A stretch of 64,000 nt of DNA from Geminicoccaceae bacterium (GTDB lineage: Bacteria; Pseudomonadota; Alphaproteobacteria; Geminicoccales; Geminicoccaceae): NCBI GenBank assembly GCA_025062095.1, contig JANXAZ010000002.1, positions 62,001 to 126,000 of the forward strand, in the 5' to 3' direction. The notes beneath the pieces were generated by a model. It did not search any database. It saw only the letters and a list, made by a program, of their open reading frames with translations, and was not told the DNA's origin. Shown here in pieces: positions 5,156 through 50,667 of this stretch (the first letter of the stretch is position 1; the number at the start of each line of letters is the position of its first letter). Both the position numbers and the translations under genes were made by a program.

Positions 5156-6235
5156 ATGGCCGATGCGCCGGGGATCGACCAGCCGGAAAGGGCGGAAAAG
5201 CCCCTCCTCGCCGTCTTGCGCGGCCGGCGCCTCGATCCGCCGCCGGTCTGGTTCATGCGCCAGGCCGGACGCTACCTTCCCGAGTATCGCGCGATCCGGG
5301 CGCGGGCACGCGGCTTTCTCGACCTCTGCTACGATCCCGAGCTCGCGGTCGAAGTCACGCTCCAGCCCCTGCGCCGCTTCGCGCTGGACGGGGCGATCCT
5401 GTTCTCGGACATCCTCGTCGTTCCCCACGCCTTGGGGGTCGAGGTCGTCTTCGTGGAAGGCGAAGGACCTCGGCTGGCCCCGATCGAGGGTCCGCGCGAG
5501 CTCGCGCGGCTCGATCCGACCCGCCTGCACGAACGCCTCGAGCCGGTGTACGAGACGCTGCGCCGGCTGCGCCGCGCCCTGCCCCCGCTCGTGACGCTGA
5601 TCGGCTTCGCGGGCATGCCCTGGACCCTCGCCGCCTACGTCGTCGAAGGCCGCGGCGCGAAAGACTTCGTGCGGGCGCGCGCGCTCGCGCGGCGCGAGCC
5701 GGCGTTCTTCGCCGCCCTCGTGGAGGTCCTGGAAAACGCCGTGCTCGCCTTCCTGGACCGGCAGATCGCGGCCGGGGCGGAGGCGGTGCAGCTCTTCGAC
5801 AGCTGGGCCGGGGTCCTGCCCGAAAGCGAGTTGCGGCGCTGGTGCATCGAGCCGGCCCGACGGATCGTCGCCGCCTTGCGCAGCCGCCATCCGGAGGTGC
5901 CGATCGTTCTCTTCCCGCGCGGGGTGGGAGCGAACCTTCTGCACTATCGCGAGCTCGGCGCGAACGCTCTGGCCCTCGACACGAGCGTGCCGATGGCCTG
6001 GGCGGCACGAGCGCTGGAGGGCTCCGAGCCGCTCGCGCTTCAGGGCAATCTCGATCCGGTGGCGCTGCTCGGCCCGGAAGAGGCGCTTGTGGAGGAGGCG
6101 CGGGCGATCGTCGCGGCCGCCGCGGCGCGGCCGCACGTGTTCAACCTCGGCCACGGAGTACTGCCCGAAACGCCGCCCGAACGCCTGGCGCGGCTCGTCG
6201 AGTCCTTGAAATCCGGGTGCGGACGGGCGATGTGA
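5156..6235 (+). CDS. hemE: Uroporphyrinogen III decarboxylase
   Basis: HemE removes the four acetate carboxyl groups of uroporphyrinogen III to give coproporphyrinogen III in the cytoplasmic heme pathway. The 359-aa product contains the first family signature around residues 31-45 (PVWFMRQAGRYLPEY, with the substrate-binding Arg35 and Arg39), the catalytic-Asp segment ILFSDILVVPH, and the second signature GFAGMPWTLAAYVVEG. Length fits the family (about 340-360 aa). The start is taken as ATG 5156 because the in-frame sequence upstream is not HemE-like; the ribosome site is weak and purine-rich. It is followed by hemJ and rho, an alphaproteobacterial order. Confidence 0.96.
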   Translation: MADAPGIDQPERAEKPLLAVLRGRRLDPPPVWFMRQAGRYLPEYRAIRARARGFLDLCYDPELAVEVTLQPLRRFALDGAILFSDILVVPHALGVEVVFVEGEGPRLAPIEGPRELARLDPTRLHERLEPVYETLRRLRRALPPLVTLIGFAGMPWTLAAYVVEGRGAKDFVRARALARREPAFFAALVEVLENAVLAFLDRQIAAGAEAVQLFDSWAGVLPESELRRWCIEPARRIVAALRSRHPEVPIVLFPRGVGANLLHYRELGANALALDTSVPMAWAARALEGSEPLALQGNLDPVALLGPEEALVEEARAIVAAAAARPHVFNLGHGVLPETPPERLARLVESLKSGCGRAM

Positions 6236-6358
6236 AGAGCGTCGTGGTTACGGCCGATCGGACGGGTTCCGAGCGCGCGTCGGCGATCCCGAGACCACGA
6301 GCCGCCCGTTCGTCGATCGGGCGAGCGGGGCATCGGCGGCCTCCGTGACAACGAGACG

Positions 6359-6790
6359 ATGACGAGCGGCCTGCTCTGGCTCAAGGCGCTGCACATCGTG
6401 GCCTTCGCCGCCTGGATGGCGGGGATGTGGTATCTGCCGCGCCTGATGGTCTATCACGCCGACACCTCGACCGGCTCGCCCGTCTCCGAGACCTTCAAGG
6501 TCATGGAGCGACGCCTCTTGAAGGCGATCACCACGCCGGCCATGCTCGTGACCGTCGCGGCGGGAGCGTGGCTCGCCACCGCCCAGGCGCAATGGCGCGA
6601 CGGTTGGCTGCACGCCAAGCTCGCGCTCGTGCTCGCGATGCTCGCGACCCACGGTCTTCTGGCCCGCCACGTCCGGGAGTTCGCCGCCGATCGGCGCGAT
6701 CGTTCGGCGCGCTACTTCCGGATCCTCAACGAGGTGCCGACGGTGTTGTTCATCGGCATCGTGGTCCTCGCCGTCTTGAAGCCGTTTTGA
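6359..6790 (+). CDS. hemJ: Protoporphyrinogen IX oxidase HemJ (UPF0093)
   Basis: HemJ is the membrane protoporphyrinogen oxidase used by many proteobacteria in place of HemG or HemY, and carries out the penultimate step of heme synthesis. The 143-aa protein has four predicted transmembrane helices, the conserved N-terminal histidine (His12 in [11 protein letters not shown]), the [14 protein letters not shown] signature, the MERRLLKAI segment with its conserved Arg/Lys, and the C-terminal [11 protein letters not shown]. It lies 123 bp after hemE and 41 bp before rho, so one heme-rho transcription unit is likely. No other oxidase is present in the window. Confidence 0.92.
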
Positions 6791-6831
6791 GGCCGGCTCG
6801 ATGGGCGTGCCGGCAATCTGGGACGACGACG

Positions 6832-8598
6832 TTGGCCGAGAGCGATTTGACCGAGGGTAAGTTGCCCTTCGCCGAGGACGCCGGCCCCGCGAGCGAGGCG
6901 GCGGCGCCGCGCCGGCGCCGCGCCCGGGCGCGGGCGGAGCGGCCGGCCGAGGCGCAGCCCGCGGCGAGCGCGGAGATGGGACACATCCCGGCGTTCCTGC
7001 AGCCGCCGGCGGAGCGCCGGCCGGAACCCTCGAGCCCCGCCGAAGCGAGCGGCGAAGCGCCGAAGGCCACGGTCGCGGAAGGCGGCGCGCCGGCCGAGAG
7101 CGCGCCCGCCGCCTCCGAGCCCGGGCTTCGCGGCGCGAGCGAAGCGACGAGCGAGACGCCGGCGCAAAGCGACGCCGAAGCGCGGCTGCGCGATCGGCGC
7201 GAGCCGCGCTTCCCGCCGCGGCCGCCGCTCAAGCTCGAGCCGCGCGGGCGCGAGACGCGGCCCGAGGCGCGGCCCGCGGAGCGGATCGAGGTGCGCCCGG
7301 TGGAAGAGACGGCCGAAGGTCCGGCGATCCCTCCCGAGACCCCGGCGATCAACCTCACCGAGCTCAAGAGGAAATCGGCGACCGAACTCCTCAAGTACGC
7401 CGAGGAGCTCGGGATCGAGGGAGCCAGCACGCTCAAGAAAGGCGATCTGGTCTTCGCCATTCTCAAGCAGCTCGCGGCTTCCGACATCCCGATCCGCGGC
7501 GAAGGGGTCCTCGAGATCCTGCAGGACGGCTTCGGCTTCCTGCGCTCTCCCGATGCGAATTACGTCGCCGGTCCGGACGACGTGTACGTTTCCCCCTCGC
7601 AGATCCGCCGCTTCGGCCTGCGCACCGGCGACACGGTCCAGGGTCTCGTGCGGGCGCCCAAGGAGGGCGAGCGCTATTTCGCCCTGGTGCGCGCGGATTC
7701 GATCAACTTCGATCCGCCCGAGGTCGCGCGGCACCGGGTGCATTTCGACAATCTCACGCCGTATTACCCGACCGAGAAGCTCAATCTCGAGATCCCGGGC
7801 CAAAAAGACCTCTCCACCCGCGTGATCGAGATCGTCGCCCCCCTGGGCAAAGGTCAGCGTGCGCTCATCGTCGCCCAGCCGCGGACCGGCAAGACGATGC
7901 TCATGCAGAACATCGCGCACGCGATCATGCACAATCACAAGGAGGTGTTCCTCATCGTGCTGCTCATCGACGAGCGGCCGGAAGAGGTCACCGACATGCA
8001 GCGCACCGTGCGCGGCGAGGTCGTCTCCTCGACCTTCGACGAGCCGGCCACGCGCCACGTCCAGGTCGCCGAGATGGTGATCGAGAAAGCCAAGCGCCTG
8101 GTCGAGCACGGACGCGACGTGGTGATCCTGTTGGATTCGATCACCCGGCTCGCGCGCGCCTACAACACCGTGGTCCCCTCTTCGGGCAAGGTCCTCACGG
8201 GTGGCGTCGACGCCAACGCTCTGCAGCGTCCCAAGCGCTTCTTCGGCGCCGCGCGCAACATCGAGGGCGGCGGCTCCTTGACGATCATCGCCACCGCGCT
8301 CATCGACACCGGCTCGCGCATGGACGAGGTGATCTTCGAGGAGTTCAAGGGCACCGGCAACGCCGAGATCGTGCTCGATCGGCGGGTGGCGGACAAGCGC
8401 GTCTTCCCCGCGATCGACATTCAGAAGTCGGGCACGCGCAAAGAAGAGCTCCTCGTCGATCGCGCCACGCTCGCCCGCATGTGGGTGCTGCGGCGCATTC
8501 TCAACCCCATGGGCACGGTCGACGCGATCGAGTTCCTCCTCGACAAGATGAAGTTCACGAAGACGAACGAGGAGTTCTGGGCCTCCATGAACCAGTGA
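6832..8598 (+). CDS. rho: Transcription termination factor Rho with extended disordered N-terminus
   Basis: Rho is the hexameric RNA helicase that ends transcription. From about residue 172 the protein is canonical: the Rho N domain ([20 protein letters not shown]), the cold-shock-like RNA-binding fold ([12 protein letters not shown]), Walker A at about 350 ([10 protein letters not shown]), Walker B ([16 protein letters not shown]) and the R-loop region. Before it lies an unusual 170-residue Ala/Pro/Arg/Glu-rich low-complexity stretch. The frame has no ATG at the right place; TTG 6832 is the best start but its ribosome site is weak, so the exact N-terminus is uncertain. The product would be about 588 aa, compared with about 420 in most relatives. 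Confidence 0.93.
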
Positions 8599-8705
8599 GG
8601 TCGCGTCCCGATCGCGGCGCGACGGACTGTTACGAAACGGGGGCTGTCCCGGGAGCGCGCGCCCGCCTAGATTGAGGCGGTGGTCTCCAGCCCCGGGGTC
8701 GCGGC

Positions 8706-9875
8706 GTGTTGCGCTCCGTTCTCTCTCTCCTCGTCGTCTTGTTGCTGGGCTCGGCCGCGGCCGGAGCCTATTGGCAGTACGTGGCGCTACCGGCGCAACA
8801 CAAGCAGCAGGCCGCCGCCCCCGGTCGGGGCGGTGGCGGCGGTCCGGTGCCGGTCGAAGCCATGGCGGTCAAGGTCGCACCGGCCGAAATCTCGATCGAG
8901 GCGGTGGGCACGCTTCTTTCCAACGAGCGGGTGAGCGTGCGGCCGGAAGTCTCGGGGCGCGTCGCCGCCTTCCATTTCGAGGAAGGCGGGAAGGTCGCGG
9001 CCGGCCAGCTTCTCGTCGAGCTCGATGCTTCCGTGGAGCGGGCGAGCCTGGCCGAGGCGAGAGCGCGGCTGTTCTTGGCCCAGAACAATCTCGAGCGGGC
9101 GCGCGAGCTGCGGCGGAGCAACGTCGGCACCCAGCGGGCCCTCGACGAGGCCGAAGCCGCCTTCCGCATCGCCGAGGCGGCGGTCGAGCTCGCTCAGGCG
9201 CAGCTCGCCAAGCGCCAGATCCGAGCCCCCTTCGACGCGCGCGTGGGTCTGCGGCGGGTGAGCGTGGGCGAATTCGTCGCCGCCGGTACCGAGCTCACCA
9301 CCCTCGAGCAGCTCGATCCGATCAAGGTCGATTTCCGCGTCCCCGAACTCTTCCTGCCCGCGGTGCGGGTCGGCAACAGCATCCGCGTCGCGGTCGACGC
9401 CTTTCCCGGCCGGAGCTTCGAGGGCCGCGTCACCGCCGTCGATCCGGCGGTCGACGAGCGCGGTCGTGCGCTCGTCGTGCGCGCGACGATCCCCAACGCG
9501 GACGAACTCCTGCGGCCGGGACTTTTCGCCCGCGTCCGCCTCACCCTGTCGACCAAGCCGGAAGCTTATTGGATCGCCGAAGAAGCGCTCGTCCCGCAAG
9601 GAGCCGAACAGTTCGTCTTCCGTCTCCTCGATCAGGGCGACGGCAAACCCAAGAAAGTCGAGCGGGTGGCGGTCAAGACGGGTCTGCGCCGTCCCGGCGA
9701 GGTCGAGATCGTCGAGGGTCTGAGGCCCGGCGATCTCGTCGTCACCGCCGGGGTCACGCGGGTCCGCGACGGTGCGCTGGCGCTCGTGCGCCGGCTCGAG
9801 GAGACGCCGCCGCGGACCGGCGAGACGCCGGTTCCCACCGCGCGCTCCCCGGAGATCCCGGGGCGTCAGGGCTGA
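8706..9875 (+). CDS. RND efflux periplasmic adaptor (HlyD/MFP family)
   Basis: A 389-aa membrane-fusion protein linking an RND pump to an outer-membrane channel. It has an N-terminal membrane anchor or uncleaved signal (LLVVLLLGSAAAGAYW, residues 8-23), a Gly-rich linker, the lipoyl halves (RVSVRPEVSGRVAAFHFEEG and KRQIRAPFDARVGLRRVSVG), a helical hairpin between them (LFLAQNNLERARELRRSNVG), a beta-barrel domain (KVDFRVPELFLPAV) and a C-terminal membrane-proximal domain. The start is GTG 8706 or the adjacent TTG 8709. The RND pump starts 12 bp later, so the two form an operon. Substrates are unknown. Confidence 0.93.
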   Translation: MLRSVLSLLVVLLLGSAAAGAYWQYVALPAQHKQQAAAPGRGGGGGPVPVEAMAVKVAPAEISIEAVGTLLSNERVSVRPEVSGRVAAFHFEEGGKVAAGQLLVELDASVERASLAEARARLFLAQNNLERARELRRSNVGTQRALDEAEAAFRIAEAAVELAQAQLAKRQIRAPFDARVGLRRVSVGEFVAAGTELTTLEQLDPIKVDFRVPELFLPAVRVGNSIRVAVDAFPGRSFEGRVTAVDPAVDERGRALVVRATIPNADELLRPGLFARVRLTLSTKPEAYWIAEEALVPQGAEQFVFRLLDQGDGKPKKVERVAVKTGLRRPGEVEIVEGLRPGDLVVTAGVTRVRDGALALVRRLEETPPRTGETPVPTARSPEIPGRQG

Positions 9876-9887
9876 GGGGAGGGACCC

Positions 9888-12800
9888 GTGCTGCTCTCCG
9901 ACGTCTCGGTTCACCGCCCGGTCTTCGCCTCCGTCCTGAGCCTGGTGATCCTGCTCGTCGGCCTGATGGCCTGGAGCCGGCTCCCGGTGCGCGAGTACCC
10001 CAAGATCGAAGAGCCGGTGGTCTCGGTCCAGACCACCTATCGCGGCGCTTCCGCCGACATCATCGAAAGTCGGATCACGCAACCGCTCGAGGAGGCGCTC
10101 TCGGGCATCGAAGGCCTCGACGTCATGACCTCCTCGAGCCGGCCCGAGCGCAGTCAGATCAACTTGCGTTTCCGCGTCGATCGCGATCCGGAAGCCGCCG
10201 CCGCCGATGTTCGCGACCGCGTGGCCCAGGCCCGCGCGCGCTTGCCCGACGACGCCGACGAGCCGGTGGTCCGCAAGGTCGAAGCCGACTCGCAGCCGAT
10301 CATCTACATCGCGCTCGCCTCCGACCGGCACGGGCCGATGGAGGTGAGCGAGATGGCCGACCGGCTGGTCAAGGACCGGCTGCAGAATCTGCCGGGCGTG
10401 GCCGAGGTGCGCATTTTCGGCGAGCGGCAGCCTTCCATGCGGATCTGGCTCGACCGGATGCGGCTCGCCGGCTACGGGCTCACCCCGCAGGACGTCGAAG
10501 AAGCGCTCCGGCGCCAGAACATCGAGGTACCGGCCGGGCGCATCGAAAGCCGCGGTCGCGAGTTCGAGATCCTCGCCGAGACCGATCTCAGGACCGTCGA
10601 GCAGTTCAACGAGCTCATCATCCGCGACGCGGACGGTTATCTCGTCCGCCTCAAAGACGTGGGCGAGGCCCAGATCGCGCCTCTGAACGAGCGGGTGACC
10701 TCGCGCTTCAACGGTCGGCTCTCCACCTCCGTCGGGGTGGTCAAACAGGCGACCGCCAATCCGCTCGAAGTGGCCGCTGCGGTACGCGAAGTCCTCCCTA
10801 AGATCCGCGAGGTCCTCCCCGAAGGAGTAGTGGCGGAGATCGGCTACGACAGCACGATTTTCATCGAGCGTGCGATCGAAAACGTTTATCGTGCGATCGT
10901 GGAAGCGATCGTCCTCGTCGTTCTCGTGATCTTCTTCTTTTTGAGATCGCTGCGGGCCACGCTGGTGCCGCTGGTCACGATCCCGGTCTCGCTCGTGGGC
11001 GCCTTCGTCTTCATGTGGGCGCTCGGCTTCTCGATCAACACGCTCACGCTTCTGGCCATGGTCCTGGCCGTCGGCCTGGTGGTCGACGACGCGATCGTGA
11101 TGCTCGAGAACATCGCGCGGCACGTCGAGATGGGCAAACGGCCTTTCCGCGCGGCGCTCGACGGGGCGCGCGAGATCGGCTTCGCCATCGTGGCGATGAC
11201 CATCACCCTGGCCGCGGTCTACGCGCCGATCGCCTTCCAGACCGGGCGGACGGGGCGGCTGTTCGTCGAATTCGCGCTCACCCTGGCGGGAGCCGTGTTG
11301 GTCTCGGGCTTCGTCGCGCTCACGCTTTCGCCGATGATGTGCTCGCTCCTGCTCCGACACGAGCAGCGGCACAACGTCTTCTATCGGGCGATCGAGGCCT
11401 TTCTGGCCGGGCTCACCCGCGCTTATCGCGCGAGCCTCGCCTTCGCTCTTTCCGTGCGGCCGGCGGTCGTCGCGCTCGCGCTCGTGGTCGCCGGCTTCGC
11501 CGTGCTCTTCTTCCGGGGCCTGCCGAGCGAGCTCGCCCCGGTGGAGGACCGCGGCACGGTGGTGACGATCGGCGTGGCTCCGGAGGGCAGCACTCTCGCC
11601 TACACCGATCGCTACGCCCGCATGATCGAGGAGGTCTACCGCTCCCAGCCGCTTTTCGAGCGGATCTTCGTCGTCATCGGCTTCGGTAACGACGTCGCGC
11701 GGGTGACCGGCTTCGGACGATTGGTGGATTGGGACGAGCGGACGGTCAAACAGCAGGACGTCACCCGCGAGCTCGCCCCCAAGATGTTCCAGATCCCGGG
11801 CATCCTCGCCTTCCCGAGCAACCCGCCGTCCCTCGGGCAGAGCCCGGTGAGCAAGCCGGTGCAGTACGTGCTGCAGACCTCGCAGCCCTATTCCGTGCTC
11901 GAGCGCGCGGTCGAGCAGCTCCTGGCCGCCGCGCGCCGCAATCCCGGTCTTCTCAACCTCGATACCGACCTCAAGCTCAACAAGCCGCAGATCGCGGTCC
12001 AGATCGATCGCGAGAAGGCGGCGCTCATGGGCATCGACGTGCGCACCATCGGGCAGACGGTGGAGACCATGCTCGGTGGTCGCCAGGTCACCCGCTTCAA
12101 GCGCGACGGCAAGCAATACGAAGTGGTGGTCCAGGTGAAGCCGCAAGACCGCGCCACGCCCGGCGATCTCTCGCAGATTTTCGTGCGCGGTGCGGGCGGG
12201 GTCATGGTGCCCTTGGCCAACCTCGTGACCATCGAGGAAAAGGTCGCGCCCAAAGAGCTCAACCACTTCAACAAGCTGCGCTCGGCCACGATCTCCGCCA
12301 CCCTCGCGCCCGGCTACTCCTTGGGCGAGGCGCTCGCCTTTCTCGATGCCGAGGCCGCCAAGCTCGATCCTTCGATCGTCACCGACCTCGACGGCCAGAG
12401 CCGCGAGTTCCGCCAGTCGGCGACGGGTTTGTGGATCGTGTTCCTTTTGGCGCTCGTCTTCATCTACCTCGTCTTGGCGGCGCAATTCGAGAGTTGGGTC
12501 GATCCCTTCGTAATCATGCTCACGGTGCCGCTCTCGATGACCGGGGCCCTGCTCGCGCTCCAGCTCACCGGCCAGAGCCTCAACGTCTACAGCCAGATCG
12601 GCCTCGTCACGCTCGTGGGTCTGATCACCAAGCACGGCATTCTGATCGTCGAGTTCGCCAATCAGCTGCGCGCCCGCGGCCGCTCCATCGCGGATGCGGT
12701 GCTCGAGGCCTCGGTTCTGCGCCTGCGGCCGATCCTCATGACCACCGGTGCCATGGTGCTCGGGTCCGTCCCCCTCGCGCTCGCCACCGGGGCCGGGGCG

Positions 12801-44457: not shown

Positions 44458-44664
44458 ATGAGCGAACCCGTCGGTGCTCTGGTTCCCTGCTCCGCGGCCG
44501 ATGCCGCCGTCGCTCCGGTGCGGCCCGCCTCCGGCCCGGGGCTCGAGCCCGAAAGCGGAAGCGAGGCGGGTGCGCGGCGCGCGCCCCATCCCTGCGAGCG
44601 CAGGCGACGCGCGCGGCTACCCGATCGTCTCTTGCGCGGGCTGGTGTTCGATCGGCTCGTCTGA
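44458..44664 (+). CDS. Possible small protein, uncertain
   Basis: A 68-codon frame starting with ATG 44458 behind a GGGAGGGCGAG ribosome site. The product is Ala/Pro/Glu-rich, then strongly basic (PCERRRRARLPDRLLRGLVFDRLV), with an amphipathic C-terminal helix. The last 48 bp overlap the end of the nitrilase-family gene on the other strand. I recognise no family; the support is the ribosome site and the otherwise empty upstream gap. Confidence 0.3.
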   Translation: MSEPVGALVPCSAADAAVAPVRPASGPGLEPESGSEAGARRAPHPCERRRRARLPDRLLRGLVFDRLV

Positions 44665-45564
44665 ACGCTCGTATTCGCGCAGCGCGAACCTCCCGGGAGC
44701 ACAGCGTCGCCAGCCGGGCCAGACCTCGGCCGCTCCGGCGCGCAGGCGACGCAGCGCACCGAGCGGGACCGCGCGCGCGAGCAAGAGCGGCCCGGGCCCG
44801 CTCGTGTGCGCGAGCGGACCGGTTTCGGCCCACACCCCGGTCGAGCCGAGGTCGGTCTCGCAGGGCACGTAGAGCCCCGCTCCCGAGACGTTGGGGCGTT
44901 CGGGCGGCACCGGCACGGTGCCGACGCCGCCGGCGACCGCGACCGCGCAACACAGCTCGACCGCGCGTGCGCGCGCGCAAGCGACCACGCGGTGGTAACC
45001 CGAAAGACGGGCCGTGTCGGTGGGAACGAGGACGAGATCGGGCGGGTCGCGCGCGAGCCGGGCGGCGAGATCGGGCTGCTCGACGTCGAGACAGACGAGC
45101 ACGGCGATGCGGATGCCGTTCCAGCGGAAGACGCGGAGCTCCTCCCCGGGTTCGAGCATCCAGGCCGCGGGATCGCGCTCGTCCGGGGTGAGCGCGAGCT
45201 TGTCCTGGTAGAGGGTGCGTCCGTCGGGAAGGCGGAGCACGGCGCGGTTGCGATAGCCCGCGCCCTCGCGGGCGGGGAAGCTGCCGGCGAGACAAACGAG
45301 GCCCAACCGTTCGGCCGTATCGAGGAGCGGCGGCACGAGGATCTCGGCTTCCCGTGCGATCCAGGGGATCTCTTCGCTCTCGGGCAGGCCCGGCGGCGCC
45401 CATTGCAGCCAGAGCTCGCCCAGATGCTCGGGCATCACGACGATGTCCGCACCGAGCGCGCGGGCGCGGCTCATCTGCGCGCGCACCAGGGCCAGGAAGG
45501 CGTCCCGACCGGCGAGGCGGAACGCCATGTTCGTAGCCCACAGCGCGAGCGTGACCCGGTCCAT
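44617..45564 (-). CDS. Carbon-nitrogen hydrolase (nitrilase superfamily)
   Basis: A 315-aa cytoplasmic amidase/nitrilase-fold enzyme. The catalytic triad is complete: Glu46 (VVMPEHLGELW), Lys122 (YQDKLALTP) and Cys158 (AVLVCLDVEQPD). The start is ATG 45564 after GGGGAGAAAGAG; the upstream in-frame sequence is not similar. The unusual Asp-Val after CysLeu differs from glutamine-dependent NAD synthetases and N-carbamoylases, so the substrate is undefined. It diverges from the 45659 gene with a 94-bp gap. Confidence 0.87.
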   Translation of the reverse strand: MDRVTLALWATNMAFRLAGRDAFLALVRAQMSRARALGADIVVMPEHLGELWLQWAPPGLPESEEIPWIAREAEILVPPLLDTAERLGLVCLAGSFPAREGAGYRNRAVLRLPDGRTLYQDKLALTPDERDPAAWMLEPGEELRVFRWNGIRIAVLVCLDVEQPDLAARLARDPPDLVLVPTDTARLSGYHRVVACARARAVELCCAVAVAGGVGTVPVPPERPNVSGAGLYVPCETDLGSTGVWAETGPLAHTSGPGPLLLARAVPLGALRRLRAGAAEVWPGWRRCAPGRFALREYERSDEPIEHQPAQETIG

Positions 45565-45658: not shown

Positions 45659-45919
45659 ATGAGCGAAGCGCCCCACCGTCCGTCCGTGCTCGCGAGCCTG
45701 CCCAACGGCGAGGCCGTCCGCGCCGAGGAGGTGCGCCGGATCCTGATCGAGCCGGCACCGGCGCCCCCGCGCCTCGAGGGTCAGCGCTTCTCGGTGGTCG
45801 TCGAATTCGCCGCGGGCGAAAGGCGGGTGATCGCGACCGGGCTCGCGCGCCCCGAGGCTCTGGACCTCGCGCGCCGGTGCGCCCGGGCGCTGCAGGAAGC
45901 GGAGAAACCGACGAAGTGA
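45659..45919 (+). CDS. Small uncharacterised protein
   Basis: An 86-aa protein starting at ATG 45659 with GGGAGC just before it. The sequence suggests a small alpha/beta fold (RFSVVVEFAAGERRVIATGL followed by a helix EALDLARRCARALQEA), like a ligand-binding or partner subunit. I do not recognise a family. Its stop overlaps the start of the next gene as GTGA, so the two are translated together. Confidence 0.6.
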   Translation: MSEAPHRPSVLASLPNGEAVRAEEVRRILIEPAPAPPRLEGQRFSVVVEFAAGERRVIATGLARPEALDLARRCARALQEAEKPTK

Positions 45920-46335
45920 GCCGCTGGCGCGGCTGGCTCGCGCGTCTGAGAAGAAAGTCCGAGCCGGTGGCGCCGCCGCCGGCCCCGAGCCCGCCTGCCG
46001 CCGAAGGCGGGGTGGTCGTGGTGACCGTGCTCGGACTCGGGGGGGAAGCGCTCGAGAAGGTACTCGAGATGGTCCACCGCGAATGTCGGGCCCTGGGCCG
46101 CAAGCCGGTGTTCGTGACCGACGGCGCCGACTTCGCCCCCTTCCGGCGGCGCAGGCTCGTGGTCGAGCAGGTCCCCGATGCCGCGCTCATGCGGCTGCGC
46201 GTCCCGGATCTGCCCTGGTGGCTCTACGAGGAGCGTCTGTTCGCCCTCATCGGCAAACGCTGGCGCGCGAGCGCGGTCGTTCATTTCGGCCGGCGTCCCT
46301 CCGAGGGCTGTCTTTCGGCGCTCAACGAGCGCTGA
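45916..46335 (+). CDS. Uncharacterised protein coupled to the preceding small gene
   Basis: A 139-aa protein. GTG 45916 overlaps the previous TGA, which decides the start. After a basic N-terminus (RWRGWLARLRRK) and a Pro-rich linker comes a Rossmann-like beginning (GGVVVVTVLGLGGEALEKVLEMV), then CRALGRKPVFVTDGADFAPF and a Trp-rich segment LPWWLYEERLFALIGKRW. Two cysteines are present. This may be a glycosyltransferase accessory or a truncated GT N-terminal fold; the convergent and following genes are glycosyltransferases. Its end overlaps the convergent gene by 14 bp. Confidence 0.6.
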   Translation: MSRWRGWLARLRRKSEPVAPPPAPSPPAAEGGVVVVTVLGLGGEALEKVLEMVHRECRALGRKPVFVTDGADFAPFRRRRLVVEQVPDAALMRLRVPDLPWWLYEERLFALIGKRWRASAVVHFGRRPSEGCLSALNER

Positions 46336-48526
46336 GGAGGGAATCGCGCGCGGCGGCGGGGAGCCGGTCGGGTCTGCGCTCGCGCGGCCAGCTGCGCGCG
46401 AGCACGGCGAGGAGCACCGCCGCCTCGCGCGCACCGGTGAAAGCGGGCAGGCGGGCGGCGCGTGCGCGCAAACTCTCTCGGAACGATGGGTCCAGAAGCC
46501 GCTCGATCGCGCACGCGATCCGATAGGGCTCGCTCGTCCGCCCGCAGAGCGCGAGTCCCGCGCGCTCGGCCCACAACGCGCGCCGTTCCTGCTCTTCCAT
46601 CATCGGGTTCTCGTTGGGCACGAAAAGGGTCGGCACGCGGGCGGCCAAGAGCTCGTGGAAGCTGTTGTAGCCGCAAGCGGCGATCGCTAAGTCGAAGGCC
46701 GCGAAAAAGCGCGCGATCGGGAATCGGACGAGCCGGCGCACGCCTGCGGGCAGGCTCGGTTCCGCTTCGCTGATCGGCCAGTCGAGGGCGACGACCTCGA
46801 CCTCGGGGCGCGAAAGGAGCGAGCGCGCGACGATGCGATCGACGATCCCGTAGTCGTAATTGTTGCGCGAGCCCAAGAGCAAGAGCACGGCCGTGCGACC
46901 CTCGGCGATCCCCAGTTCCGTCCGCGCCGCCGCGCGCGGAAGGAGCTCTTCGGGATCCGAGAACACGATCGGAGGAACGAGCACGCGTTCGAAGATCCGG
47001 CCGGCCGTGATCCCGCGGTCGTAGGCGGCGGCGAGGTCGCCGGGCTCGATCACGAGGTCGAAGTAGCGGACCCGGTCGATCGTGTCGTGCCCCGCATCGG
47101 GGCGCCAAAAGCCGCGGCGGATCCACACGAACGGCCGGTCGGCGCAGGCGAGCCGGCATTCGACGAGCGGCTGGTAGGGCACGTTGCCGTCGAAGACCAC
47201 GCAGGCCGGATCCCAGAACGCGATCGCTTCGAGGAGCCGCGCGCGGAAGCCTTCGGCCCAGCGCTCGGGGCTTTCGCGGCTCGCCGCCTGGGCCGGCGTG
47301 TACTCGGCGAGAAAGCCGAGGCGGCGGAGCAGATCCACCGCCTGGGAAAGAGCCAAGAAGACGGGCTCGATCCCTCCCGGCAGGCGGCGGGCGATCGCGG
47401 CCGTGCGCACGAGATGACCGATCCCGATCCCGTTCGGGATCACGAACAGGAGGCGGCGCGGCCGCTCGTGCTCGCGCCGGAGCCAAGGGCGAGGAGCATC
47501 CGGCCGCGGGGCGCCGAGCTCGTCCTCGAGACGCGCGCGCAGACGCTCGGGGCCGAAGAGCTCCCGCACGAAAGCGCCCGCGGTGCGCGCGAGACGGACC
47601 ACGGCCCCGCGGTCGAGCTCGGCGAGGGCTTCGCCGACACCTTCGGCCGACGCGGCGAGCGCGGCATCGCCGAGAACAGGTTCGAGCGCCGGCGGCACGA
47701 GGCAGGGAACCCCGGCGGCGAGGGCTTCGAGGAGGGCCGGGGGCAGCCAGGCATCCCAGTCTTCGGGTGCCACCGCGACCCAGGCCGCGAGCTCGGCCAA
47801 GAAGCTCCCGAGGTCGGGGAGATCGCCCGGGACGAGCGCGAGCGCCGCCGGGGTCCCGGGCTCGAGGAGCGCGCGTTCGGCGGCTTCTTCGGCGAGGATC
47901 CCCCGAGCCTCGGAGGGAAGGCGTCCGAGCGGTGCCCCCGCGCGAAAAGGCCCCTCTCCGTGTCGGCCGACGAAGCGCTTCGGACCTCGTTCCGGTGCGG
48001 GCTCGGTGTGCTGGACGAGAAACGGCCAAGGTTCGGAAGCGCGGGGCAGATCGCGCCAAGGCGCGGAGCGCGCGAGCGCGCGGGCGAGAAGCGGATCGGC
48101 CGGCACCAGAGCGGGAGCGGCGCCCAGCACCTCCTCGGCCTTGGCGAGCAGTTCCGCGGGGTCGAGAAGGAGCGCGGTCCAAGCCGAAGGCGGAGCCTCG
48201 AGGCGCACGAGCGCCTTTTCGGCGCGAAGGCGCGGTGGGCGAAAGGCGAGCCCGAGGAGCGGGGTCGCCTCGTAGGCCAGGGCCAGGCGGCAGAATGCCT
48301 CTCGCGCAGGATCGAGGAGCAGAACGGAGCGGGTCTCGAGCAGAGCGCGCAAGCGGGGCTGGATCGGGCGGGCGGGCAGGACGGGCGGGGAGGCGAGCGG
48401 CAGGAAGCCGCAGCGCCAGCCGCAGGCGGCGGCGAAGTCGAGAAGGGCGGCGAGTTGGCGCCCCGCGGCACCGCCGCGGAAGGGATCGGCGGCGACGACG
48501 AAGTCGAACTCGAGCCGCGTGCTCAC
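46322..48526 (-). CDS. Probable double glycosyltransferase (degenerate GT-B unit fused to MurG-like GT)
   Basis: A 734-aa soluble protein. The first ~350 residues resemble a degenerate GT-B glycosyltransferase, ending with WLPPALLEALAAGVPCLVPP, the place where GT4 enzymes have their sugar-nucleotide site, but without the usual Glu-X7-Glu. From about 355 a second unit begins as MurG/GT28-like: LLFVIPNGIGIGHLVRTAAIA, then LLLLGSRNNYDYG, and the acceptor/donor loop CGYNSFHELLAARVPTLFVPN. ATG 48526 is used. A divergent GT follows across an 80-bp gap, so the two may build one glycan. The donor is unknown. Confidence 0.75.
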   Translation of the reverse strand: MSTRLEFDFVVAADPFRGGAAGRQLAALLDFAAACGWRCGFLPLASPPVLPARPIQPRLRALLETRSVLLLDPAREAFCRLALAYEATPLLGLAFRPPRLRAEKALVRLEAPPSAWTALLLDPAELLAKAEEVLGAAPALVPADPLLARALARSAPWRDLPRASEPWPFLVQHTEPAPERGPKRFVGRHGEGPFRAGAPLGRLPSEARGILAEEAAERALLEPGTPAALALVPGDLPDLGSFLAELAAWVAVAPEDWDAWLPPALLEALAAGVPCLVPPALEPVLGDAALAASAEGVGEALAELDRGAVVRLARTAGAFVRELFGPERLRARLEDELGAPRPDAPRPWLRREHERPRRLLFVIPNGIGIGHLVRTAAIARRLPGGIEPVFLALSQAVDLLRRLGFLAEYTPAQAASRESPERWAEGFRARLLEAIAFWDPACVVFDGNVPYQPLVECRLACADRPFVWIRRGFWRPDAGHDTIDRVRYFDLVIEPGDLAAAYDRGITAGRIFERVLVPPIVFSDPEELLPRAAARTELGIAEGRTAVLLLLGSRNNYDYGIVDRIVARSLLSRPEVEVVALDWPISEAEPSLPAGVRRLVRFPIARFFAAFDLAIAACGYNSFHELLAARVPTLFVPNENPMMEEQERRALWAERAGLALCGRTSEPYRIACAIERLLDPSFRESLRARAARLPAFTGAREAAVLLAVLARSWPRERRPDRLPAAARDSLLSAR

Positions 48527-48556
48527 GGGCGAGGCGGTTGTCGGGAACGGAGCCGT

Positions 48557-48566
48557 CTCCTAGGAG
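48557..48566. repeat. 10-bp palindrome CTCCTAGGAG in the divergent GT gap
   Basis: A perfect 10-bp palindrome lies between the divergent glycosyltransferase genes, 31 bp upstream of one and 41 bp upstream of the other. It could be a shared operator. Confidence 0.35.
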
Positions 48567-48606
48567 CGGGCGAGCGAGTCGAACACGGGCTCGCCGAGGC
48601 CGTCTC

Positions 48607-49707
48607 ATGCCGCATCGTCTGGTCTTCTTTCCCGATTATCGCGGCGCCAATCCCTACCAGAGCCTTCTGTACGCGCACAGCGCGGAGGAGCTGTATCCCG
48701 AGCCCGGGTCGATCGCCGAAGCGATCGCGGTGCGCCGCCGCCAGGCTCCGGAAGAGGCGACGATCTTCCACCTCCACTGGGAGGACGCGGTCTATCGCAA
48801 CGAGCCCGACGAGGCGTCGGCGCGCACCGCCGCGGAACGCTTCGCGGCCGAACTCGAGCGGTTCGTGGATTCGGGCGGGACGGTGCTGTGGACGCTGCAC
48901 AACGAGATCCCGCACGACGATCGGTTCCCGAGCGTGCGCGCCGCGCTGCGCGCGGTCCTCGCGCGCCTGGTCGACCTCGTCCACGTCCACGGGCTCGCGG
49001 GGGTGCGCTTCGCCCGTGACGAGCTGGGGATCGGCCCCGAGCGGCTGGCCGTGGTGCCGCACGGAAACTATCGACCCCACGTGGCTCCGCTGCGCGGGCC
49101 GCGCTCTTCGAGCCGCAGCGCGCTCGGGTTGCCCGAGGACGCCCGGGTTCTCCTCTTCTTCGGCCGCCTCGACGCTTATAAGGGGGGCGCGGAACTGCTC
49201 GAGGCCTTCGGTGGGCTCGATCGTCCCGAGCTCTGGCTCGTCGTCGCCGGCAAGCAGGTGGCGCCGCTCGACGATTCGCTCGCGGCGCTGCCGGAGCGGG
49301 TGCGCGGGCGCGTTCGCGTGGAGGCCGGACAGATCCCGCGCGAGCGAATCCCGATTTTGTTTCACGCGGCGGATGCGCTGGTGGCGCCCTATCGGCGGGT
49401 GCTCACCTCGGGAGCGGCGATGCTCGCGCTCACCCTCGCGCGGCCGGTGATCGCACCGGCCCATCCCGGCCTCGGGGAGCTCGTGCGCGACGGCGTCGAG
49501 GGGCTTCTCTACGATCCTGCCGAGCCCGCAGGCCTCGAGCGCGCGATCGAGCGCTTTCTCGCGCTCGACGTCGAGGTGCGGCGGGCATTGGAAGTGCGCG
49601 CCGAAGAACGCGCCGGGCTCTTCGATTGGCGCATGCTCGGCAATCTGTATCGCGGTCTGTTCGCGATGCTCATCGCGGCCCGCCGGCCGATGCGTCGGCT
49701 GGATTGA
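48607..49707 (+). CDS. Glycosyltransferase (GT-B fold, GumK/GT70-like or GT4-like)
   Basis: A 366-aa cytoplasmic glycosyltransferase. The N-terminal half has HRLVFFPDYRGANPYQSLLY and the VLWTLHNEIPHDDRF loop; the C-terminal half has the typical FFGRLDAYKGGAELLEAF, the donor-binding region PYRRVLTSGAAMLALTLARPVIAP and a GLGELVRDGVEGLLYDP ending. The pattern is of enzymes acting on exopolysaccharide or LPS intermediates. ATG 48607 is the start; a poor ribosome site precedes it. Its end overlaps the convergent lipoprotein gene by 38 bp. Confidence 0.86.
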   Translation: MPHRLVFFPDYRGANPYQSLLYAHSAEELYPEPGSIAEAIAVRRRQAPEEATIFHLHWEDAVYRNEPDEASARTAAERFAAELERFVDSGGTVLWTLHNEIPHDDRFPSVRAALRAVLARLVDLVHVHGLAGVRFARDELGIGPERLAVVPHGNYRPHVAPLRGPRSSSRSALGLPEDARVLLFFGRLDAYKGGAELLEAFGGLDRPELWLVVAGKQVAPLDDSLAALPERVRGRVRVEAGQIPRERIPILFHAADALVAPYRRVLTSGAAMLALTLARPVIAPAHPGLGELVRDGVEGLLYDPAEPAGLERAIERFLALDVEVRRALEVRAEERAGLFDWRMLGNLYRGLFAMLIAARRPMRRLD

Positions 49708-50377
49708 GCAGCTGCTCGGCCGCCCGCACCACGGCCTGTTCGAGCCGGCCGCTCGGCCGGCACACGAGACCCTGAGCGAAACGTCCCGTGGTTCCGGTCT
49801 CGAAGGCGGCGGTCTCGCGCTGGGTGTCCAGGACGCGGCCGTCGAGGGCGACGCGGTCGACCGTGCGGGTGAGCACGTAGGTCGCGCGCACCTCGAGCCG
49901 GCTTCCCGGTTCGCTCGGGCGGGCGATCGCGAGCAGCCGGCCGTCGAGACGCAGTTGGCGCAAGAGCACCTCGCGCCGCTCGGGCGGCGCGAGCGGGATG
50001 CGCAGGTCGAGGCGGGCGGCGGGGATGCGCCGCGGCGGCGCGCCGGGCTCGTGGAGCTCGAAGCTGCCGCAGTCCACGAAGGGCTCGGGATCGCCCGAGC
50101 TCGTGAGCTCGAGCCAGGCCGTGCCGTCTTCGGCGGTGCCGCGCCGCATCCGGCTCTTCTCCGCACCCAGGGCTTCGGCGAGACGTGCGATCGCCGCTTC
50201 GGGAGGTACGGCGGTGGCGATCACCGGCACGGGAGGCGGAGGGTCCGCGGGCGGGAGATAGTTGCGCTCGACCGGCTCGCGCCCGAAACGCGGAGGCGTA
50301 GGCGGGGCGGTCGCGCAAGCCGCGAGCAGGCTCGCGAGCAGGAAAGGGAAGCCGAAGCCGTGGCGGTGCGGGATCAA
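49670..50377 (-). CDS. Outer-membrane-type lipoprotein, unknown function
   Basis: A 235-aa lipoprotein. The signal ends in SLLAACATA, a good lipobox, with Cys21. A Pro-rich linker is followed by a domain with LDLRIPLAPPERREVLLRQL and EVRATYVLTRTVDRVALDGRVL, resembling envelope lipoproteins of the LPP20 or CsgG-associated type, though the match is weak. The TTG start at 50377 overlaps the previous gene's stop as TTGA, supporting it. The two genes form a small envelope operon. Confidence 0.65.
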   Translation of the reverse strand: MIPHRHGFGFPFLLASLLAACATAPPTPPRFGREPVERNYLPPADPPPPVPVIATAVPPEAAIARLAEALGAEKSRMRRGTAEDGTAWLELTSSGDPEPFVDCGSFELHEPGAPPRRIPAARLDLRIPLAPPERREVLLRQLRLDGRLLAIARPSEPGSRLEVRATYVLTRTVDRVALDGRVLDTQRETAAFETGTTGRFAQGLVCRPSGRLEQAVVRAAEQLLNPADASAGGPR

Positions 50378-50667
50378 TAGAGGTCCTGCGCCCGACCCGG
50401 TTCGGCGGCCGGTCCGGCCGCCGGCTCGACACTGCTGTCCAGAGAACGCGCGATCAGCTGGCGAAAAGCCTCGGTCGCGTACCGACCGAGCGGATATTGG
50501 TCGAGGTAGCGCTGGAAGGCCTCCGGGGTTGCCTCTCGGACGACACTATCCCAGAGCTGTCGCTCGGGATCGGTGCTCTGAGCGCGCGCCGAACCGGCGG
50601 CTCCGTGCGCCACGCCGAGGGCAAGAAGCGCGCGCAGCGCCGCATAGACCGTCCTGAAACGTTCCAT
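50374..50667 (-). CDS. Small secreted protein with WDS...YLDQYP repeat motif
   Basis: A 97-aa protein with a signal peptide (TVYAALRALLALGVAHGAAGSARA). The mature part reads PERQLWDSVVREATPEAFQRYLDQYPLGRYATEAF, a helical motif seen in TPR-like or caspase-associated bacterial proteins. ATG 50667 is preferred for the signal peptide; GTG 50703 is an alternative with a poor ribosome site. It is coupled to the lipoprotein gene by a TTGA overlap. The function is unknown. Confidence 0.6.
   Translation of the reverse strand: MERFRTVYAALRALLALGVAHGAAGSARAQSTDPERQLWDSVVREATPEAFQRYLDQYPLGRYATEAFRQLIARSLDSSVEPAAGPAAEPGRAQDLY

Follow-up and report, generated by a model that had tools for sequence, protein, structure and literature searches.

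An alphaproteobacterial gene module in which GT-B glycosyltransferases recur beside a small exported protein ending in tyrosine

GT-B enzymes of the kind found at this locus act in the cytoplasm on nucleotide sugars. A precedent for a sugar on a tyrosine of an exported bacterial protein comes from Gram-positive bacteria, whose S-layer proteins are reportedly O-glycosylated on tyrosine; these tyrosines are said to be internal, and the proteins unrelated to the small exported protein considered here. For mycofactocin, the portions of PMC7491314 drawn on here describe a C-terminal Val-Tyr in MftA, glycosylation by MftF, and sugars carried on the hydroxyl of the C-terminal Tyr. The portions drawn on of PMC3482391 treat polymorphic toxins and not the present locus, and a literature search, with subscription papers and preprints outside its scope, found no description of the gene set.

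We analyzed a window of 64,000 nucleotides (the whole stretch of DNA, G000:C66:62001-126000) from a 3.3-Mb genome in 143 contigs. P0001 (45659-45919, plus strand) encodes an 86-aa protein of no known family, and P0002 (45916-46335, plus strand), which has a GTG start, encodes a 139-aa protein; as claimed in the first-pass annotation, the two genes share a GTGA overlap. The 734-aa tandem GT-B protein P0003 (46322-48526, minus strand) and, across an 80-bp gap (48527-48606), the 366-aa GT4 P0004 (48607-49707, plus strand) were also found as described there. The box drawn in that annotation (45659-49707) omits two minus-strand genes, and the conserved locus spans 45659-50667: P035 (49670-50377) encodes a 235-aa predicted lipoprotein (LLAAC, read by eye), and P036 (50374-50667) a 97-aa exported protein with a signal peptide read by eye and the C-terminus -QDLY, its terminal Tyr codon lying at 50377-50379. 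Gene calls in 20 stretches from relatives place P035 and P036 in the same block in the window's own genus and in genus g16. P0002 and P0003 converge, their 3' ends sharing 14 bp (46322-46335), and a carbon-nitrogen hydrolase gene (44617-45564), divergent from P0001 and adjoining glmM, is conserved in the genus.

The 80-bp gap does contain the 10-bp palindrome CTCCTAGGAG (48557-48566) to which attention had been drawn, but such a feature is at chance level, with a 10-bp palindrome in 368 of 1598 80-bp stretches of the window and in none of five relatives' gaps. A regulatory role was rejected on this chance-level frequency. The gaps of five aligned genus members have in common the heptamer TAGGAGC (48561-48567), located at the palindrome, but not the palindrome itself, and a promoter and terminator scan gave no signal above shuffles.

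Matches to P0003 define 40 loci, recovered as 42 stretches (in both G001 and G027 the locus spans two contigs). Counting profile matches at E<=0.001 in six-frame translations, we observe P0002 in 34 of these loci, a caspase domain in 23, P035 in 13, P0004 in 11, and P0001 in 7; in 39 we could identify a small exported protein. L101, where the contig is cut, is among the 40, its small protein not read. Outside the 40 are L172, L173, L174, L179, and L180, which have partial or distant GT matches with the full set absent, and L165, a Priestia megaterium plasmid with only the C-half of P0003 (31% identical; 5568-10020), near a nucleotide-sugar dehydrogenase, another glycosyltransferase, and spore coat genes. 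A P0002 match is absent from L087 and L101 (contig cut), L103, L104, L164, and L176; in L176 a called protein does match, at 2.8e-5. L103, L104, and L164 have neither a P0002 nor a P036 profile match; their 136-aa gene is not supported as a P0002 homologue (hhalign probability, 0.3%), and support for their small proteins as P036 homologues is weak (21%).

Within the family, P0002 is present in 11 of 31 genomes, all 11 of which also have P0003, and P036 (E<=1e-8) in 13, of which 12 have P0003 at E<=1e-20. P0003 carriers lacking P036 at E<=1e-8 are G014, G023 (with another small protein, also Tyr-ended), G024 (diverged), and G028 (contig cut). Among 385 class genomes, the three with full-length P0003 are also the three with P0002 and with full-length P036. 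These genomes themselves supplied rows to the P0003 and P036 profiles, while two of them supplied none to the P0002 profile; these searches first scored 2 to 12 candidates per genome, and weak copies may be missed. P036 matches occur in 63 of the 385 overall, most of the others being short and lying inside longer open frames. Outside the family, P0003 homologues of ~28-41% identity were found on 43 plasmid records, mainly from Rhizobium, Sinorhizobium, and Shinella, and also from Rhodobacter, Paracoccus, and Pelagibacterium. Four further full tandem loci were found among 398 phylum genomes, and a contig scan for relatives gave one close relative only. Judged by these matches, the predicted module recurs in Geminicoccaceae, Rhizobiales, and Rhodobacterales, at least three alphaproteobacterial groups. 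Comparison of the loci shows its recurring predicted parts to be a GT28-like GT-B, usually one GT4-type activity (as the N-half of P0003 or as a separate gene), P0002, and a small Tyr-ended exported protein. The enzymes belong to known families, and together they make up a conserved module with one striking constant feature.

That feature is the end of the small protein. Its last residue is Tyr in 37 of the 39 loci, and Tyr is penultimate in the other two (G024, -SYM; G624, -PYN); among other complete called genes, drawn from the window, the Geminicoccaceae stretches, and the later genome stretches but from no plasmid, 4 of 402 end in Tyr. Alignment A1 contains 13 P036 proteins, every one with a final Tyr that follows L, I, M, or V, and across all loci the preceding residue is usually L, A, I, V, or N. 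The 39 proteins, 64-159 aa long and with signal peptides or lipoboxes read by eye and with a crude script, fall into three similarity groups by single-linkage blastp. At 60% identity they form 24 clusters, and the 22 of these with a terminal Tyr are not independent, since the loci are related by descent. The terminal codon is TAC in 16 and TAT in 14 (32 loci) and stands before all three stop codons; this free variation of Tyr codon and stop points to selection on the amino acid.

Some of these genes were chosen with the ending in view. Six (L141, L144, L154, L155, L156, and L175) were found by seeking a small exported Tyr-ended ORF; they make up a single similarity group, and leaving them out gives 31 Tyr-ended proteins of 33. 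The small genes of L103, L104, and L177 were chosen among called genes with that ending in mind. Of the four full tandem loci obtained later, three are Tyr-ended and one has a penultimate Tyr. The small protein of R. etli is present in 32 plasmid records, all of them among the 43 GT records; R. sullae, R. gallicum, and R. etli 8C-3 carry diverged copies (35-39% identical) whose ending is still -VY. In G010, which has relatives of P035 and P036, 19 kb of sequence gave no P0003 match, and the P036 relative ends in -ANLP; as the assembly is 87% complete and a cut-off P0003-like fragment lies on another contig, it is one suggestive case at most. The near-constant terminal Tyr suggests that this end is acted on or recognized by the glycosyltransferases.

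Both halves of P0003 are related to glycosyltransferases: of 15 aligned homologues, 14 match PF04101 (E<=0.01) and 8 match PF13692. Only the C-half of the window's own P0003 scores (20.7 bits against PF04101, just below the cut-off of 22); the N-half, which has no Pfam match of its own, is identified via homologues. The C-half (approximately residues 356-734; 46322-47461, minus strand) is a GT28/MurG-like GT-B whose best solved relatives are the MurG-type entries 7d1i and 3s2u. Motifs were read in 37 loci (25 plus 12 added), excluding L101, L154 (two frames), and L160 (split). GxGxGH is present in the C-half in all 37 rows, and the Glu of the GYN motif in 36, G024 having Asp. Presuming that the glycine-rich loop with its His and the acidic residue of the C-domain play the roles that they have in MurG, we predict the C-half to be active.

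The N-half (approximately residues 1-345; 47492-48526, minus strand) is of GT4 type. What we take to be the GT4 motifs, a donor-binding R/K motif and E-x7-E, are kept as GRH.R...K[WF]P and E-x7-E in 20 of the 37 rows and are lost in the window and its genus, and the N-half is degenerate or absent in 14 rows. The degenerate form is retained in all five locus-carrying genomes of the genus and in genus g16, and in G021 the N-half is nearly gone (P0003 of 574 aa). Next to the C-half gene in G014, G023, and L164 lies a stand-alone GT related to the intact N-half, and 34 of 37 loci have one recognizable GT4-type gene or domain alongside the GT28-like one. The earlier description of GT motifs in both halves, the first degenerate, thus agrees with the loss of motifs that relatives keep and with the GT-B relation confirmed by homologues, short of a Pfam match in the window's N-half itself. 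The idea that the degenerate half is a scaffold fares less well: with an intact GT4 in so many relatives and the half almost lost in G021, a scaffold role could only be local. AlphaFold2 gave a pLDDT of 34 for P0003 (input, window and L034 only). A tandem GT split over two frames is seen on an R. beringeri plasmid (L160, 4318-6662), where the small protein still ends in Tyr, and second GT28-like C-half copies occur in Shinella (L141, 13512-15392, fused to a methyltransferase) and S. meliloti (L144, 14140-15360, no Pfam match).

P0004 matches PF00534 with 69.9 bits (cut-off 26.4; E 2.5e-19) and, in an alignment read by eye, has a TSG..LAL stretch in place of E-x7-E. It occurs in none of the 20 rows with an intact N-half and in 11 of the 14 with a lost one (the window, G001, G002, G004, G005, G022, G027, G021, G009b, G024, and Rhodobacter), the G027 copy being on a separate contig. 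The exceptions, with a degenerate N-half and no P0004 match, are L094, whose genome carries P0004 in its second locus, L177, whose P0002-bearing neighbor has a GT2 domain, and L178. This pattern supports replacement over a general scaffold, with P0004 as the proposed stand-in for the lost N-half activity. On the C-half tree (25 rows) the P0004 group needs three changes; N-half loss and P0004 are clustered on it and may have a single origin. The G004 orthologue of P0004 (L089, 7057-8157) is interrupted by an in-frame TAG and stands as two genes in the gene calls, and the Rhodobacter homologue (L142, 6265-7335; profile match, E 4.6e-77) is annotated as "peptidase M14."

P0002 stands alone in most loci and is elsewhere fused to a P0004-type GT4 (L102), a GT25 (L143), or a GT2/alginate-lyase protein (L177), the last of these fusions being matched by a 1517-aa protein in L178. 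Weak joins to a phosphoribosyltransferase are seen in L145 and L158. The fusions to GTs are good evidence that P0002 is a GT partner. P0001 is present in 8 of 31 family genomes and 7 of 40 loci (the eighth, G027, by the family-genome search), only in loci with P0004, and was not found in the Rhizobiales or Rhodobacterales loci scanned; by this distribution it is a lineage-specific accessory. The two small genes had been proposed to encode a pair of accessory subunits, which suits the 139-aa protein, tracking the GT in 11 of 11 genomes and in GT fusions, but not the lineage-specific 86-aa one. Neither protein had a significant match when solved structures were searched with profiles, and AlphaFold2 of P0002 alone gave a pLDDT of 46. 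In G022 a TerB-DnaJ protein (L092, 12139-12951) lies directly beside P0001.

The surroundings of the module vary. Heparinase II/III, alginate lyase, and nucleotide-sugar dehydrogenase are among the neighbors of some loci, and the lyases and dehydrogenases hint at a glycan that may contain uronic acid. Some caspase neighbors carry Sel1 or FGE-sulfatase domains; the caspase profile PF00656 has no match in the window's own genome and none in the stretches of the five genus loci. For P035, comparison with solved structures returned nothing significant, two BamC-type entries (E 0.58 and 1.6) being among six weak matches. Six window proteins were assigned 0 families by the antiphage defense models of PADLOC, and those compared with PHROGs had no match.

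We consider it most likely that the locus represents the form taken in this genus by an alphaproteobacterial glycosylation module, and we give a probability of about 0.4 to two GTs acting on, or building on, the Tyr-ended exported protein, where the glycosylation step is one that we infer. The first-pass annotation had proposed a glycan or protein-glycosylation system, and a tandem GT-B with a degenerate first half fits that proposal, with the same proviso for glycosylation. Nearly as likely, although it too must be called tentative, is that the Tyr is a docking tag for a periplasmic partner while the GTs independently make an ordinary surface polysaccharide or exopolysaccharide, and that the small protein, lipoprotein, and caspase/Sel1 proteins form an envelope surveillance set. 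The lyases and sugar dehydrogenases would suit a polysaccharide; the P036 repeat also occurs inside bacterial caspase proteins (profile matches in L099, L141, L154, and L156), and the caspase gene lies directly beside the small protein in L093, L142, L143, and L155. Against such a set, 17 of 40 loci, including all five of the genus, have no caspase match in the stretch, and in the caspase-less loci 14 of the 16 small proteins read still end in Tyr; the small protein was identified in 39 of 40 loci and the caspase in 23, and the window's own genome lacks the latter. Rather doubtful is the strictest form of the glycosylation reading, a dedicated C-terminal-Tyr glycosylation in which the two GT-B enzymes and P0002 would recognize the free terminal Tyr and assemble a glycan at the hydroxyl, so that across different protein bodies the substrate would be defined by this last residue only.

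The model of the first-pass annotation taken whole, a surface glycan system with the degenerate half as scaffold and the 86- and 139-aa proteins as accessories, seems unlikely to us. Retention of the degenerate N-half throughout the genus and in g16 speaks for it, as does the tracking of the GT by P0002, but the intact GT4 of 20 of 37 rows, the near loss in G021, and the lineage-specific P0001 do not, and its gene set omits the most constant small partner, the P036-type protein. We think it improbable that the module converts the last two residues into a modified peptide or small molecule akin to mycofactocin. The residues that usually precede the terminal Tyr would allow this, the mycofactocin sugar chain is placed on a tyrosine hydroxyl in the portions drawn on of PMC7491314, and radical SAM genes lie near or adjoin the small protein in two Rhodobacterales-type loci (L175, 11896-12891; L143, 8422-9954); however, the small proteins, 64-159 aa in length, carry signal peptides or lipoboxes, the radical SAM Pfam match occurs only in those two loci among the genes scanned, none being annotated in the other annotated loci, and there is none among ten window proteins scanned. 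Least probable is a type VI secretion accessory, in which the GTs and caspase would modify or guard a T6SS component. T6SS-type genes (VgrG, TssM/IcmF, TagF, DUF2169, or DUF4150) do lie near L142, L145, L146, and L158-L160, which are some of the rhizobial and Rhodobacter loci, but no T6SS gene is annotated in the Shinella or S. meliloti stretches. TssC (PF05943), found in 5 of 31 family genomes, has no match in the window's own genome, and on this ground a T6SS link was rejected as a requirement.

If the module glycosylates, the two GTs with P0002 would make a short glycan in the cytoplasm, possibly one containing uronic acid, which might be built on the small protein or have it as its anchor. 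The C-terminal Tyr could then be the acceptor hydroxyl or a docking tag. The product would be exported via the signal peptide of the small protein and might be handled in the envelope by the lipoprotein P035. In the window's genus the N-half would be a non-catalytic remnant, perhaps kept for folding or docking, with P0004 supplying the GT4 step. The caspase/Sel1 proteins of other genera may be a downstream sensor or protease; the window's own genome has none.

Four anonymous genes thereby become a defined module, with a testable prediction that rests on a last tyrosine. Should this Tyr be the sugar acceptor, it would represent a new way of marking an exported protein by its very last residue. 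In addition, the locus shows an enzyme domain that has lost its motifs beside a probable replacement enzyme, and the caspase-like proteins of rhizobia gain a regular gene partner.

Compared with known systems, the C-half of P0003 resembles GT28/MurG-like enzymes (PF04101), which most of its homologues match, but it is remote (below the Pfam cut-off in the window), is fused to a GT4-type half, and has a small exported partner. GT4 enzymes (PF00534/PF13692) are resembled by P0004 and by the N-half of relatives with its GRH.R...K[WF]P and E-x7-E motifs, whereas the window's N-half has lost these motifs and P0004 has TSG..LAL for E-x7-E. Bacterial caspase/Sel1 and caspase/FGE-sulfatase proteins, some with a P036-profile stretch, accompany the module in 23 of 40 loci yet are absent from the window's own genome. 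The module differs from mycofactocin in its larger exported body, its two GT-B enzymes, and a radical SAM that is unannotated in most annotated loci; the likeness lies in a gene-encoded small protein with Tyr as its last residue next to glycosyltransferases, and mycofactocin is the nearest working analogy.
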